Assembly: GCF_013387455.1 (NCBI RefSeq)
Contig: NZ_VWNC01000004.1
Coordinates: forward strand, 186,001 to 250,000
Direction of reading: 5' to 3'
DNA length: 64,000 bases
Source of the DNA: Mariprofundus sp. NF
GTDB taxonomy: Bacteria; Pseudomonadota; Zetaproteobacteria; Mariprofundales; Mariprofundaceae
In this document: in pieces, positions 35,362 to 40,515 of the stretch
How positions within the stretch are numbered: the first letter of the stretch is position 1
Layout of the letters: the number at the start of each line of letters is the position of its first letter
Notes under the pieces: generated by a model
Database searches by the model: none
The model's input: only the letters and a program-made list of their open reading frames with translations
What the model was told of the DNA's origin: nothing
Made by a program: the position numbers and the translations under genes

Positions 35362-36348
35362 CTAGAGAGCATCCCCAAGCGCATCAATCAGCGGCTGCAG
35401 ATGTTTCTCATAGCGTTTCCAGCGTTCAATGGAGTTCTTATAAATCGGCTGACGAACCTGGGCCAGACTTGATGTCTGAACAGTCTGTTTGGATTCGTAG
35501 AATTTCAGGCACGCATCATTCCACTCTAGGTTACAGAATTCGAGCATACGGCGGCTCTGCTGCTCCTGTTCTGCAACGAGCGACTCATAACTGACCTCAT
35601 GGTAAATCTCTGCAGGCAGAACCTTGCGCCAGTGCTCGGCCATATCGAGATAGATGCGGTAGTATTCACCGATCTCCTGCAGGTCATAGGCGTAATTGAA
35701 CGCAGCGCCCTGGAAAAGATTGGAGAAAATAGAGAAGCATGTATCCAGTGGATCACGCATGCAGTGGATGATTTTTGCCTTGGGAAACAGCATGCGAATG
35801 ACTCCGATGAGCCAGATGTTGGGCAGTGCCTTATCAACATAGCGTTCAGACTCTCCGAACAGCCGGTTCATCGCATTCCGGTATTGGTTGGCAGCTTCTA
35901 TGATTCGGTCATCTGAGGTGTTGGTCAGTATCTGCAGGTCAAGCTGATGTATATCACCGCTTGTAAGTCGACCTGTAGTCTCTCTCAGTAGATCTGTTTC
36001 ACCGCTATCAACGACATTTGGCAGGCTTGCCAGAATTTGCGCCAGCAGTGTTGAACCGCAGCGAGGCATGCCAACAATAAATATAAACTCTTCACCATTG
36101 GCTTCATTGTCTGGCTGCTTTGTAAAAGAGGTTTCGTTGAACATCTCTTTGACCTCTTTGGCAAATTCGTGTTCATGGGCTATGTCGAATTGTCCGTAAT
36201 CCTGGCGGATACGGTTTGCCTCAGCGTAATAGGTAAAGGATCTGTCATAATCATGTAAATCCTCCCTCCCACGCTTTGCCGAGTCCGAAGCCAATGGTGA
36301 TTCGGTCTTCAGGCGGTGTGAATGCAGCGTTAAATGCATTTTCCGCAC
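35362..36348 (-). CDS. Sulfotransferase half of a frameshifted TPR-sulfotransferase gene
   Basis: This frame encodes a sulfotransferase domain with the PAPS-binding loops FIVGMPRCGSTLLAQIL (the usual Ser is Cys) and CMRDPLDTCFSIFSNLF. From about codon 30 it matches the intact neighbouring protein at 37135-38841 (DYDRSFTYYAEANRIRQ against EYDKSFACYFAANQIRK). The first part, 36348 to about 36270, is out of frame with the real gene, and the ATG at 36348 has no convincing RBS. The intact ancestor had TPRs upstream in one frame (36251-37099). A separate peptide made by reinitiation cannot be excluded. Confidence 0.75.
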   Translation of the reverse strand: MRKMHLTLHSHRLKTESPLASDSAKRGREDLHDYDRSFTYYAEANRIRQDYGQFDIAHEHEFAKEVKEMFNETSFTKQPDNEANGEEFIFIVGMPRCGSTLLAQILASLPNVVDSGETDLLRETTGRLTSGDIHQLDLQILTNTSDDRIIEAANQYRNAMNRLFGESERYVDKALPNIWLIGVIRMLFPKAKIIHCMRDPLDTCFSIFSNLFQGAAFNYAYDLQEIGEYYRIYLDMAEHWRKVLPAEIYHEVSYESLVAEQEQQSRRMLEFCNLEWNDACLKFYESKQTVQTSSLAQVRQPIYKNSIERWKRYEKHLQPLIDALGDAL

Positions 36349-37099
36349 GCTTTACAATATCATTATAGCTATCGATTTTTTTGAATCGAAGAAGTCGGGA
36401 GAGTGAATCAGCATGGTATGGATTGAGTTCGAGTGCTTTGTTCAGAGTTTTAAATGCCTCATCCATATCGCCTTTTTGCAATATGAGGACTGCAAGATTG
36501 TACCATGCATCGGCATTGTCCGGATCGATTTCAATGGAAGTTTCGAAGCAGACTATAGCTTCATCGTAGCGTTGCTGCTGAAGCAGAGATTGTCCCAGGT
36601 TTGTATGGCCCATGGCTCGCTTTGGCGAGTGTTTAAGACATTGCCTTGCAGCAGTCTCTGCTTTTCCCCACTGACGAAGTGAATACCATTCACAAGAGAG
36701 TGCCTGCCATACATCACCGCTGTATGGCTTTAGCTTGAGATAGAGCTGCCAATAATGGATCGCAGACTCATAGTCTCTGGTTTTATTGTTTAGTTGAGCG
36801 AGGCTAATCAAGAGGTTGAGATGTTTTGGATTGTTCTCATGGCCACGCAGATAAAGTACCTTGGCCTCATCCAGGTCGCCACTATGTTCGGCAATTTTTC
36901 CCAGCAGGTTGTTGGCATCAGGGTCAACAGGGGGGATTTTCAGAATAGTCATGCAATGTTTTTTTGTTTGAATGAATTGCTCGCTGAGAAAGGCTCGTGT
37001 GGCAACATTCACCAGCAGTTTAATCTGGCGTTTCTTGTTGTTCGAGAGTTTAACGTTGATTTTCACACTGCTTCTGGTGATTGATTTCGCGGATTTCAA
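36251..37099 (-). CDS. TPR half of a frameshifted TPR-sulfotransferase gene
   Basis: A 282-residue frame with about five TPR motifs (for example NLLGKIAEHSGDLDEAKVLY, MGHTNLGQSLLQQQRYDEAI, AWYNLAVLILQKGDMDEAF). It ends GKAWEGGFT, where the tandem paralogue continues GKAWEDLKEYDKS into a sulfotransferase. The break is a 4-base duplication at about 36261-36270. Without it the two halves make one protein of 577 residues, close to the 568-580 residues of the paralogue. Probably a recent pseudogene, a phase-variable gene or a sequencing error. Confidence 0.8.
   Translation of the reverse strand: MKSAKSITRSSVKINVKLSNNKKRQIKLLVNVATRAFLSEQFIQTKKHCMTILKIPPVDPDANNLLGKIAEHSGDLDEAKVLYLRGHENNPKHLNLLISLAQLNNKTRDYESAIHYWQLYLKLKPYSGDVWQALSCEWYSLRQWGKAETAARQCLKHSPKRAMGHTNLGQSLLQQQRYDEAIVCFETSIEIDPDNADAWYNLAVLILQKGDMDEAFKTLNKALELNPYHADSLSRLLRFKKIDSYNDIVKRAENAFNAAFTPPEDRITIGFGLGKAWEGGFT
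36259..36272 (-). repeat. GGGA duplication causing a frameshift
   Basis: On the minus strand the run TGGGAGGGAGGATT has an extra GGGA compared with the TGGGAGGATT expected from the paralogue. Removing one unit restores the frame exactly (Ala-Trp-Glu-Asp-Leu). Two tandem GGGA units followed by GG could slip during replication. Confidence 0.8.
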
Positions 37100-37134
37100 G
37101 AATATCTAGATAGATTTATGATTCGTATGGCTGG

Positions 37135-38841
37135 CTACTTAACAGCATCGCCCAGCGCATCAATCAGGGGTTGCAGATGCTTTTCAAAAGGTTTCCAGCG
37201 ACCTTGCGATCTATTATTAATGGGTTCACGAACCTGAGTGAGGCTCATCGTTTTCACTATACTTTTTTTCTTGTGGAAGTTCATGCAATCCTCACTCCAT
37301 TCAAGGTCGCAGAATTCCACTAGGCTTTTAGCCTCTTTCTCCGGCTCTGCGATTAACGATTCATTGCTGATTTCATAAAAATTTTTATCAGGCAGAACTG
37401 ATCGCCAGTGTTTCATCAGATCAAGATAGATGCGGTAGTGTTCGCCTATATCTTTGAGACAGTATGAAAATCCGAATTCTGTGCCTGCAAAGCCACTTGA
37501 AAAAATGGAGAGGCAGTTGTCCAGCGGGTCGCGAGATGAATGAATTATTTTAGCGTTAGGGAACAGTAATCGAATAGTGGCAACCAGCCAGAAGCTGGGC
37601 AGGGTTTTATCAATATATTTTTCAGCTTTAGAAAATCGGGAGATCATGCCTTGACGATATCTTGAAACGGCATCAATAAGTTGTTCACGGCTGACTTTAG
37701 AAAGATTTTCCATGATGTGTTGGTCATAGCTTCCGCTGGTTAAGAGTCCAGTCACCTGCTTCATTGCATCATTCTCTCCCATATCAACGACTTTGGGATG
37801 AGCGGCTAGAATCTGAGCTAATAGCGTTGAGCCGGAGCGCGGCATGCCAACAATGAAAATCAGATCATCGCCATTAGCAGGGCAATCAGCAAGTTTATTG
37901 TCAAAGAACTCTTGGGTGAATAGTTCTTTAAGCTTCTCAGCGCGTTGTCTGTCATCTTCAATATTATAATCAGCAGTTTTTTTTCTGATTTGATTGGCTG
38001 CGAAATAACATGCAAAAGATTTGTCATATTCTTTCAAGTCTTCCCATGCCTTGCCAAGAGGAAAGAGAAGGGGAGCCCTTACTTCATCATCTGTTTCAGG
38101 TAAGGCAATGATTTCTTCAGCCTGTTTCATCAAGTCGTTGTAAGTAGATGGCTTGTTGATACGAATGAGTTTAATTATTGAGTCTGCATGGTGAGGGTCA
38201 ACTTCAATTGCATGGTTGAATGCATCCGTCGCATCGTTAAATCGACCAGTCTCCATTAGTGCAGTGCCGAAGTTATACCATACATCAACATCATGAGGCT
38301 GTATGGAAGTAGCCTTCCTGAAATAATTAAATGCCTCTTCATGGCGGTTCAGCTTGTAAAGGATCTGCCCATACCCACCTATGAGGTCACCGCGGCTAGG
38401 AGCAAGTTGTATTGCCATATTACAAGAGGATTCAGCATCAGGCCAGTTTTCGAGTTTATTGTATGCTGCAGAGAGCGCTTGCCATCCATCTGGATTCCTC
38501 GGCTGGAGCTTGGTGAATTGTTTCCAATATTCAATAGCATCTGAATACTCTTCAAGGTTTCCATGGAGCAGGGCAAGGCTTGCAATTAAGCCCGGGTGCT
38601 TACGGGAAGATTTGAATCCGTGCTGATATAACTCTTTAGCTTTTTGCGTGTCGCCCTGTTTTTCACTGATCTTTCCAAGAATGTTATATGCATCAGGGTT
38701 GTTCTTATGAAGCTTTAGAATGTCCCGGCAGAGCTGTTCTGCGCGAATCAGGTCATTGGCAACATAGGCGCGCATGGATGTAGTGGCTAATGATTCAATC
38801 TTACGCAAGGCATTATTGGATGGCTTTCTTACTTTCATCAT
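37135..38841 (-). CDS. TPR-sulfotransferase
   Basis: A 568-residue protein with six to seven TPR repeats in the N-terminal half (NAYNILGKISEKQGDTQKA-like, IEYWKQFTKLQPRNPDGWQA, VWYNFGTALMETGRFNDA) and a sulfotransferase domain from about residue 310. The PAPS loops are complete: FIVGMPRSGSTLLAQIL and SSRDPLDNCLSIFSSG. A lysine/histidine-rich tail ends FEKHLQPLIDALGDAVK. The acceptor is unknown; members of this class sulfate carbohydrates, lipids or tyrosines. No signal peptide, so it acts in the cytoplasm. The ORF extends 12 codons upstream, but AAGGG precedes the ATG pair at 38841. Next to cyc2. Confidence 0.87.
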   Translation of the reverse strand: MMKVRKPSNNALRKIESLATTSMRAYVANDLIRAEQLCRDILKLHKNNPDAYNILGKISEKQGDTQKAKELYQHGFKSSRKHPGLIASLALLHGNLEEYSDAIEYWKQFTKLQPRNPDGWQALSAAYNKLENWPDAESSCNMAIQLAPSRGDLIGGYGQILYKLNRHEEAFNYFRKATSIQPHDVDVWYNFGTALMETGRFNDATDAFNHAIEVDPHHADSIIKLIRINKPSTYNDLMKQAEEIIALPETDDEVRAPLLFPLGKAWEDLKEYDKSFACYFAANQIRKKTADYNIEDDRQRAEKLKELFTQEFFDNKLADCPANGDDLIFIVGMPRSGSTLLAQILAAHPKVVDMGENDAMKQVTGLLTSGSYDQHIMENLSKVSREQLIDAVSRYRQGMISRFSKAEKYIDKTLPSFWLVATIRLLFPNAKIIHSSRDPLDNCLSIFSSGFAGTEFGFSYCLKDIGEHYRIYLDLMKHWRSVLPDKNFYEISNESLIAEPEKEAKSLVEFCDLEWSEDCMNFHKKKSIVKTMSLTQVREPINNRSQGRWKPFEKHLQPLIDALGDAVK

Positions 38842-38957
38842 GAAAAATCTGACCCTTATTATATATAATAGAGACATCTTCTGATTAATGCTGCTTATGT
38901 CAACTGAGGAATTAACGTCAAATGCATAAGGATATGAAAAATAAAGAAGAATGTGTT

Positions 38958-39012
38958 TGTGTCAAAATGACACAGCACAGATGTGTCGTGTTGACCCAGT
39001 GATCTGGATCAC
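38958..39012 (+). promoter_or_regulatory. Two dyads upstream of the cyc2-like gene
   Basis: The 311-base gap before the cyc2-like gene holds a perfect dyad TGTGTCA-AAA-TGACACA (38958-38974) and, 24 bases later, GTGAT-CTGG-ATCAC (38999-39012), whose half-sites and 4-base spacing match CRP/FNR-family sites. A TTGACC hexamer lies at 38991-38996 but no good -10 is paired with it. The gap otherwise contains a leader hairpin (39105-39122) and no gene. Confidence 0.5.
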
Positions 39013-39104: not shown

Positions 39105-39122
39105 TAACCCCAGTAGGGGTTA
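39105..39122 (+). promoter_or_regulatory. 5'-leader hairpin of the cyc2-like gene
   Basis: TAACCCC (39105-39111), loop AGTA, GGGGTTA (39116-39122): a perfect 7-bp stem 30 bases before the ATG and upstream of the ribosome-binding site AGAGGA. Such hairpins near the 5' end can stabilise abundant mRNAs. Confidence 0.5.
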
Positions 39123-39152
39123 AATAAACTTTTTAATAGAGGATATCACAAC

Positions 39153-40466
39153 ATGAAGAAGACACTTCTTTCTGCTGCTGCTTTCGCTGTTGTTGCTGTT
39201 TCTGCTGTTGCAGTTGCTCCAACCACTTCTGAAGCTGTTCCTGCATTCGCACGCCAGACCGGCGCTGCATGCTTGAACTGCCACTTCCAGGCAATTCCAC
39301 GTATGACCGCTTTCGGTCGTACTTTCCGTATGAACGCTTTCCGTGACATGGGTGAGCAGGGTCTCATCGAAGACGAGCACCTGTCACTTCCAGCGGTATT
39401 CAACATGGCTTTCCTGATGAAAGCTCGTATCTCTAACGGCGCAACTAAAACTGGTGCTGGCGTACAGACCGCTGGTGGTGGTTTGATCGGTACTCAGGCA
39501 ACAGTTTCTTCTGTTGCTGTAGCAACCCCAACTGCTAACAAGACTGCTATCCAGTTCCCTGATGAAACTGCATTCCTGTTCGGTGGTCGCTTGGGCGAGC
39601 ACACTGGTATGTTCGTTGAAATGGGCTACAACGGCGCAGCTATGGACATGCTGGGTTACAAAGTTGCATACGTTATCGATATCGACGGCGGCCTGATCGC
39701 TGTTGCTCTGGGTACTTCTGATGCACTGGGTCTCTCTTCAGTGTTCAACGATCCTTCAAACGCAATCTCTCGTAACACTCGCGGTGTTCAGACTCGTGCA
39801 CGTGCAATGCGTGACACAGTTCACCACGATGCAGGAACTGGTGTTGGTGTATACGGTCACGTAGCTGACTCTATCTACTTCGCACTTGGTGGCGCTGTTG
39901 CCGCTGGTGGCGGTGCTGTAGTTGGTGGTGGTGTTGACCTTGACCTCGGTACTTATGCACGTCTGGCTTACACTGGTGAGCTCGGTGGTTTTGATGTTGT
40001 TGCTGGTGGTTGGTATGCCAACCTGCACAATGCAAATCATAAGATTAACAACATTCCTAAGGGTTCACGTAAGGAAGTTGGTCTGGACATTCAGGTTCAG
40101 GGCGACCTCGGCGCTGCTTCTGTAGGCTTCTATCTGCCAATCGTTCTGTCTTCTAAGACTGATGCTGCTTGGGCTGGTGGTATAGGTACCATGGGCGCTA
40201 ACCAGAAAGTTACTGGTTACATGCCTTACGTAAACATCGCATTCGGCGCTGCTGGCGTACGTCTGGGTTACGATTATGCTAAACGTACCAACACAATCGG
40301 TGCTGCTGCAACTCAGAAAGACACTCAGTTCGTATTCGGTGCTTGGTATGACCTAGCTCAGAACTTCACACTCGACCTTGAGTATGATGCACAGAAACGC
40401 ACTGTTAATGGCGCAGCTACTCAGAAGCTGAACGCTACTACTCTGCAGCTTGAGTACGTATACTAA
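39153..40466 (+). CDS. cyc2: Cyc2-like fused monoheme cytochrome-porin (outer-membrane iron oxidase candidate)
   Basis: A 437-residue exported protein: signal peptide with a likely cut after SEA (residue 28), then PAFARQTGAACLNCHFQ with the heme motif C40-L-N-C43-H44, then about 370 residues of alternating beta-strands ending in the aromatic LEYVY typical of outer-membrane barrels. This heme-plus-porin plan, and the FARQTG sequence before the heme, is that of Cyc2, the outer-membrane Fe(II) oxidase of Zetaproteobacteria and Acidithiobacillus. Codon use is strongly biased (GCT, GTT, GGT, AAC, CGT) unlike most neighbours, as in very highly expressed genes. It stands alone between a 311-base upstream region and a strong terminator. 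Other FARQTG/CxxCH porins exist, so the enzymatic role is inferred. Confidence 0.78.
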   Translation: MKKTLLSAAAFAVVAVSAVAVAPTTSEAVPAFARQTGAACLNCHFQAIPRMTAFGRTFRMNAFRDMGEQGLIEDEHLSLPAVFNMAFLMKARISNGATKTGAGVQTAGGGLIGTQATVSSVAVATPTANKTAIQFPDETAFLFGGRLGEHTGMFVEMGYNGAAMDMLGYKVAYVIDIDGGLIAVALGTSDALGLSSVFNDPSNAISRNTRGVQTRARAMRDTVHHDAGTGVGVYGHVADSIYFALGGAVAAGGGAVVGGGVDLDLGTYARLAYTGELGGFDVVAGGWYANLHNANHKINNIPKGSRKEVGLDIQVQGDLGAASVGFYLPIVLSSKTDAAWAGGIGTMGANQKVTGYMPYVNIAFGAAGVRLGYDYAKRTNTIGAAATQKDTQFVFGAWYDLAQNFTLDLEYDAQKRTVNGAATQKLNATTLQLEYVY

Positions 40467-40487
40467 GATTCCTTTAGGAAACTTTGG

Positions 40488-40515
40488 AAAGGGGCCCTTC
40501 GGGGCCCCTTTTTTT
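40488..40515 (+). terminator. Rho-independent terminator after the cyc2-like gene
   Basis: AAAGGGGCCC (40488-40497), tetraloop TTCG, GGGCCCCTTT, then a T-run to 40515. The 10-bp, GC-rich stem with a UUCG loop is one of the strongest terminators in the window and isolates cyc2 from the BamC-like gene. Confidence 0.95.

Follow-up and report, generated by a model that had tools for sequence, protein, structure and literature searches.

Cyc2 is an outer-membrane cytochrome-porin that is thought to take electrons from iron in marine iron-oxidizing bacteria, and it is used as a marker gene for neutrophilic iron oxidation, of which it is the proposed key enzyme. The Cluster 1 protein of Mariprofundus ferrooxydans PV-1 comes from the same bacterial lineage as the one described here and shares with it a signal peptide, the sequence AxPxFARQT, one CxxCH, and a 16-strand barrel resembling phosphate-selective porins (PMC8406198). 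The same source describes AXPXFAR[Q/K][T/Y] ahead of CXXCH as the identifying motif, unique to Cyc2, and PXL as an accessory consensus that is common to many cytochromes and is not the identifying mark. What has been reported for Zetaproteobacteria is the presence of Clusters 1 and 3, not an in-place exchange within the Cluster-1 locus (PMC7029218). Cyc2 has also been documented to show low clade fidelity and to move often between phyla (PMC12442345), but the unit considered there is the whole gene on protein trees and the string “recombin” is absent from the text, whereas the case presented here concerns one locus, exchange within the gene, and retention of the leader. That Cyc2 is highly expressed and moves between taxa is already known, as is the protein itself (PMC7029218, PMC12442345). 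Our searches of the open-licence PMC literature, PMC12607638 included, found no report of an in-place exchange of mature Cyc2 and none of a palindrome, operator, or hairpin in the cyc2 leader.

The window, a 64,000-nt stretch of the genome of Mariprofundus sp. NF, contains an ORF with an ATG start that encodes a protein of 437 aa (Table 1). The first-pass annotation had called it a Cyc2-like cytochrome-porin, and its assignment as the Cyc2 of this Mariprofundus-lineage genome is supported by the motif, the single heme, a length above 365 aa, the barrel model, and phylogeny. Its only cysteines are C40 and C43, both within one CxxCH (C40-L-N-C43-H44) that directly follows a 28-residue signal-like stretch, as had been claimed; MKK, a hydrophobic stretch, and SEA make this a putative signal peptide, judged by eye. 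Just 5' of the heme site, A28-V-P-A-F-A-R-Q-T36 fits the published Cyc2 motif, and the proposal that FARQTG before the heme marks the protein as Cyc2 was borne out. FARQTG and the heme motif are invariant in 22 of 22 aligned homologues, so neither is a product of chance. At 437 aa the protein exceeds the 365-aa minimum for Cyc2, and its model has the expected C-terminal porin barrel of about 16 strands. In protein trees, it groups with the Cyc2 proteins that we designate C1, which occur class-wide, and with Cyc2-like proteins of a family labelled f82, apart from Cyc2 of the FARKY type and not among non-Cyc2 porins. The window gene is the sole match in its own 2.53-Mb genome (99.8% complete), and the two named relatives found in a scan of the genome collection were Mariprofundus sp. 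KV (81%) and the Mariprofundaceae MAG OFTM395 (63%). Scanning the protein against NCBIfam yielded no family at E values up to 1, Pfam gave one match under its cut-off, a PDB sequence search gave a chance match only, and plasmids held no homologue.

Table 1. Features of the cyc2 locus, in window coordinates.
Feature	Position	Strand	Basis or remark
Palindrome TGTGTCAAAATGACACA, candidate operator	38958..38974	+	Class-wide leader screen
Imperfect second copy TGTGTCGTGTTGACCCA, 24 bp downstream of TGTGTCAAAATGACACA	38982..38998	+	3 mismatches to palindrome, reverse strand
GTGATCTGGATCAC, inverted repeat GTGA-N6-TCAC	38999..39012	+	Exact GTGA-N6-TCAC in 23/52 leaders
Candidate 5'-UTR hairpin UAACCCC-AGUA-GGGGUUA	39105..39122	+	Covariation in 20 chosen leaders
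Putative ribosome-binding site AGAGGAT	39138..39144	+	Read from sequence; GAGGAT/AGGAT precedes ATG in relatives
cyc2 CDS including stop	39153..40466	+	Single copy in genome
Signal-peptide codons 1-28, lineage-own	39153..39236	+	Four-fold third-base identity in same-genus VAR-C1 pairs
Inferred recombination junction, codons 24-41	39222..39275	+	Max chi-square scans
Cytochrome core AVPAFARQTGAACLNCH (A28-H44), one c-type heme	39234..39284	+	Motif as in PMC8406198; core residues invariant over 22 sequences
Beta barrel, VAR type, residues 83-437	39399..40463	+	About 16 strands in model; OprO/OprP best by VIA-align
Strong intrinsic terminator (GC-rich hairpin of 12 bp, then a T run)	40486..40515	+	Folding energy of the 60-nt stretch: -27.4 kcal/mol (z -2.8)

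An AlphaFold2 model built on 22 homologues forms a barrel of about 16 strands with a mean pLDDT of 62.5, and residues 1-80 are mostly below pLDDT 50, which leaves the heme domain without a usable model. Against solved structures, VIA-align placed OprO (Z 24.8, rmsd 3.5 over 305 residues) and OprP (Z 24.6, rmsd 4.2 over 320 residues) at the top with general porins close behind (PorB Z 23.5), and Foldseek ranked PorB first and OprP fourth. Because PorB scores so near to OprO and OprP, the model shows a 16-strand porin fold rather than a phosphate porin as such; an OprO/OprP-like fold has been reported for PV-1 Cyc2.

The codon usage of the gene stands apart from that of its neighbours, with T-ending Ala, Val, and Gly codons as well as CGT and AAC enriched as the annotation had stated: compared with the other window genes, the fractions are 0.62 versus 0.22 for GCT, 0.68 versus 0.27 for GTT, 0.68 versus 0.40 for GGT, 0.76 versus 0.31 for CGT, and 0.85 versus 0.42 for AAC. 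Using 21 genes of the same genome (ribosomal proteins and EF-Tu) as the reference, the codon adaptation index (CAI) of cyc2 is 0.802, which ranks first among the 49 window genes and exceeds the value for EF-Tu itself (0.786). The other 48 genes have a mean of 0.574 (sd 0.051, maximum 0.704), which puts cyc2 about 4.5 sd above them. Codon usage thus suggests that cyc2 is highly expressed, in agreement with published metatranscriptomes of zetaproteobacterial cyc2 (PMC7029218), and a codon-bias prediction of high expression was reported earlier for Ghiorsea (PMC10734525). Foreign codon usage in the mature part was considered and rejected, as CAI runs 0.86/0.82/0.80 along the gene.

A search of 78 genomes of the class found a Cyc2 match in 67, and typing by heme-flanking residues, C-terminal ending, and tree position, with full and partial sequences included, separated the C1 type from a second type, VAR, to which the window protein belongs. 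VAR occurs in 8 of the 78 genomes (G000, which is the window's genome, and G054, G076, G022, G023, G026, G034, and G045; G026 is 9% contaminated, G023 56% complete, and G034 cut), C1 in 53, three of these assignments resting on fragments, and neither type in 17, among which are incomplete MAGs. No genome of the 78 has both (Fisher one-sided p = 4.6e-5). The sequence sets leave aside L002 and L003, which are named duplicates of the G054 and G076 loci, and L010, which the motif regex missed. VAR is a fully supported clade in two protein trees, one of 67 rows (without L017, L019b, L033, and any row of at most 280 aa) and one of 48 rows, made up of 8 VAR, 23 of 45 C1, 4 of 14 FARKY, and 13 f82 sequences, where its support is 100/99. 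In the 48-row tree, the distance of VAR from C1 is about equal to that of the f82 proteins from C1, and VAR and f82 join with support 96/99, both on long branches; f82 is taken for a putative Gallionellaceae family, going by its Cyc2 content. The clade that includes the mature part of the window protein shares about 32-34% identity with the class's C1 proteins. The heme motif is CLNCH in the window protein and CLSCH or CLACH in nearly all C1. The window protein ends in LEYVY, so the claim that the barrel closes on an aromatic residue holds here, but it fails as a general mark of Cyc2 in the class, a terminal aromatic residue being present in 7 of 7 complete VAR and in 4 of 42 complete C1 proteins. 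Relative to the published Clusters 1-3 (PMC7029218), VAR appears in our own trees to fall on the side of the Cluster-1-like proteins. The FARKY proteins of the class appear to behave as a separate cluster, which motif and tree suggest is Cluster 3.

The distance between VAR and C1 raises the question of function. VAR could be Cyc2-shaped and have another job, with a donor such as Mn(II) or a role in detoxification, and not be used for Fe(II) respiration: it lies as far from C1 as does the Cyc2 of a separate bacterial family, the PXL consensus four residues past the heme motif is replaced by P49-R50-M51 in the window protein and in G054 (the other 6 of the 8 VAR proteins have PRL), and Cyc2 has been proposed to act in manganese oxidizers (PMC11442690). 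Compared with the published description of PV-1 Cyc2 and with the consensus, the window protein differs in this PRM, in CLNCH, and in its EYVY end (PMC8406198). Yet the window's near-complete Mariprofundus-lineage genome has no cyc2 other than this VAR gene, which occupies the native cyc2 site behind the native leader and in the window has the strongest codon adaptation of any gene, and we consider another job very unlikely.

VAR and C1 genes occupy the same chromosomal site in three genera. In the window's genus, g1, the order is glutamate-cysteine ligase (gshA), TPR-sulfotransferase, cyc2, NlpB-like lipoprotein, trpC, trpD, trpG, and trpE (five window neighbours were named by Pfam, trpD and trpG by eye), and it is common to VAR genomes G000 and G054 and C1 genomes G046 and G050, as well as to G048, where the trpC family was left unassigned in clustering. 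In genus g14, gshA adjoins cyc2 in both VAR G076 and C1 G074, and in g6 the flanking families F20 and F21 are common to VAR G022 and G026 and C1 G021, F20 also lying beside C1 in G032. Outside these three genera, neighbours often differ (G045, G008, G002, G018, G016). A tree of the upstream neighbour gshA rejects a single VAR clade (p-AU 3e-10). As a point against exchange, in a tree of the trp genes of g1 the VAR hosts are not nested within the C1 hosts. Downstream, the g6 terminator stem is nearly the same in VAR G022 and G026 and C1 G021 and G032, so the exchanged unit there looks like the mature coding sequence alone. When g1 is compared with g14, the 60 nt starting at the stop codon are 81% identical between VAR genes (G000-G076) versus 57-63% between VAR and C1 within a genus; this likeness follows VAR, and the right-hand break therefore lies further on there. 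Three NlpB-like lipoprotein genes stand in a row after the C1 cyc2 of G046 and G048 (L097, L098), and one follows the window's VAR cyc2. The TPR-sulfotransferase genes beside cyc2 in the window (35362-38877) include one apparently split into two overlapping ORFs; G054 has one such gene at cyc2 and other congeners have one to three.

In its leader and signal-peptide codons the gene tracks the host genus, and in its mature part it tracks VAR. In a 53-row tree of positions -220 to +87, which cover the leader and the first 29 codons (L007, L013, and L050 were dropped for having less than 100 nt upstream), VAR needs 6 label changes, likewise across the 5-95% bootstrap range, and the AU test rejects a single VAR clade (p-AU 8e-66). 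In a 52-row tree limited to the upstream DNA, VAR needs 5 label changes and a single clade is again rejected (p-AU 3e-7), as is a constraint that unites only the VAR genes of g1 and g14 (3e-4). The leader closest to the window's is that of the sister strain (0.90), followed by those of own-genus C1 genomes G046 (0.79) and G048 (0.76), and the leaders of VAR G076 and G023 are each closest to an own-genus C1 leader (G074, 0.78, and G032, 0.79). Within genera, VAR-C1 pairs have a four-fold third-base identity of 0.86 over codons 1-28 and 0.52 over codons 29-44, and C1-C1 pairs 0.84 and 0.65. Signal-peptide codons are, however, kept at silent sites even between genera (0.59 versus 0.34 expected from codon usage), which suggests an RNA-level or translational constraint on codons 1-28. 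Because these codons are conserved beyond codon usage class-wide, they are weak evidence by themselves, and the case for exchange is carried by the upstream DNA and synteny.

Max chi-square scans placed the break near the boundary between signal peptide and heme: in G000 at codons 24/28 with G046 and G076 as partners and at 9/22 with G050 and G076, and in other VAR genes at 40/41 (G076), 26/29 (G023, two scans), 40/41 (G026), and 20/21 (G022). The upstream sites of G026 are near even (38 to 32), and leader similarity in g6 is lower than elsewhere. The reading that this is an ordinary, vertically inherited Cyc2, with a spurious tree conflict caused by sequence that is short, conserved, or long-branched, has some basis in the leader, which is short and hard to align between genera, and in the long branches of the 67-row protein tree and the leader tree. 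We give this reading hardly any credence, since AU tests reject a single VAR clade for the leader, the upstream DNA, and gshA alike, none of 1000 permutations reached the observed break in any of the 7 scans, and in the same-genus pair G076 (VAR) and G074 (C1) the 60-nt upstream blocks are 65-86% identical against mostly 38-62% for coding blocks past codon 40 (one block, codons 61-80, reaches 75%).

The shared locus, the conflicting histories of leader and mature part, and the breakpoints at the signal-peptide/heme boundary together indicate that an in-situ exchange of the iron oxidase probably took place in 3 or more lineages. The main rival to exchange is that C1 and VAR stood side by side in an ancestor as old tandem paralogues, that gene conversion evened out their leaders and signal peptides, and that one copy was then lost in each lineage. 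Such a history would give the same mosaic pattern, and tandem cyc2 copies do exist in G074 (L099, contig C23), in G011 (L019, contig C314; the two copies score identically and are probably a recent duplication), and in the f82 relatives G443 and G451. It would also require a clean loss of one copy in every lineage, and 0 of 78 genomes retain both types; we regard it as unlikely, if the most serious competitor.

Under exchange in place, the VAR mature part, from about codon 29, would have replaced C1, or been replaced by it, at the same chromosomal site, most likely by homologous recombination, for which the almost identical sequence between the signal peptide and the end of AxPxFARQTGAAC would have served as the left arm, and the host's promoter, 5'-UTR hairpin, and signal peptide would have stayed in place throughout. 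Candidate drivers are redox niche and phage or predator pressure on exposed loops, or the exchange may be neutral. As for the protein, Fe(II) at the cell surface would reduce the heme of the N-terminal mono-heme domain, located at or in the 16-strand barrel, and electrons would then pass to periplasmic carriers or cytochromes, as published for Cyc2 relatives. Fe(II) oxidation by VAR, the direction of exchange, and homologous recombination as its mechanism are what we infer from these patterns. Taken as a whole, a sole and highly expressed cyc2 that likely serves electron uptake from Fe(II), with its mature part exchanged in place and its native leader kept, is a model in which we have good confidence. 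We are evenly divided on a more general proposal, that the cyc2 locus is an exchangeable socket: a lineage-owned, class-wide cassette of palindromic operator, structured 5' UTR, and signal peptide conserved at silent sites, into which divergent mature Fe oxidases would be swapped by recombination at the signal-peptide/heme boundary, an allele replacement like that of surface antigens with regulation remaining native. If mature Cyc2 is exchanged as an allele, Cyc2 protein trees and molecular clocks would fail to track hosts even within a genus, and VAR-type iron oxidizers may be misplaced by probes built on the usual type. The natural pairs G000/G046 and G076/G074, which have different mature Cyc2 at one syntenic locus, make the effect of exchange testable (redox potential, affinity, phage sensitivity).

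The leader that stays behind contains several conserved elements. In a screen of 52 leaders with 250 nt upstream, TGTGTCAAAATGACACA is present at 4 mismatches or fewer in 48, about 140-250 nt upstream of the start codon; carriers span both types and two families, and 49 of the 52 leaders beat shuffles at 5%. GTGTCATGTTGACCCAGTGA beats shuffles at the same level in 32 of 52. In the window's genome, the single exact TGTGTCAAAATGACACA is the one at cyc2. The next best site there has 2 mismatches and lies among methyltransferase-like and peptidyl-prolyl-isomerase-like ORFs (named by eye), and a multi-gene regulon is not supported. At 2 mismatches or fewer, a search of 15 genomes found the palindrome at cyc2 in G000, G001, G002, G048, G052, and G065 and at other places, and 5 of the 15 have none. 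The second copy overlaps a -35-like TTGACC (38991-38996), which may be the promoter -35, and GTGA-N6-TCAC in GTGATCTGGATCAC is presumably CRP/FNR-like. The leader was also considered as a cassette repeated elsewhere in its own genome and rejected, the other matches being short with E of at least 0.03.

The hairpin ends about 30 nt ahead of the start codon. Pairing reaches 99.2% of cells in a set of 20 leaders, a value inflated because leaders with an obvious hairpin were picked by eye. Of 6 pairs, 3 have changes on both sides, and the 9 double-sided changes compare with 2.0 in shuffles, are reached in 0 of 500 shuffles, and exceed all slid versions. The signal is weaker in an unselected set: when 54 leaders were screened automatically, 26 had a hairpin that outscored 95% of mononucleotide shuffles. 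Loops are often UACG, CACG, or UUCG, and g13 and part of g4 and g7 lack a clear copy. Rfam has no known RNA family for the cyc2 leader (there was one chance miRNA match). Palindrome and hairpin may have a regulatory role, and they offer concrete targets for studying cyc2 regulation in these bacteria.

Five genomes of g1 (G049, G055, G059, G061, and G062), as well as G004 and G030, all 87-99% complete, have Cyc2 of the FARKY type only, with neither C1 nor VAR, and their hosts are possibly iron oxidizers, or non-oxidizers, without a Cluster-1-like Cyc2. Four further genomes (G046, G052, G069, and G047) contain short ORFs (L145, L146, L147, and L148, respectively) of 95-124 codons from stop to stop that have the Cyc2-like cytochrome motif P[AS]F[ST]RQ...C..CHF and no barrel, and these may be free-standing Cyc2-type heme domains.
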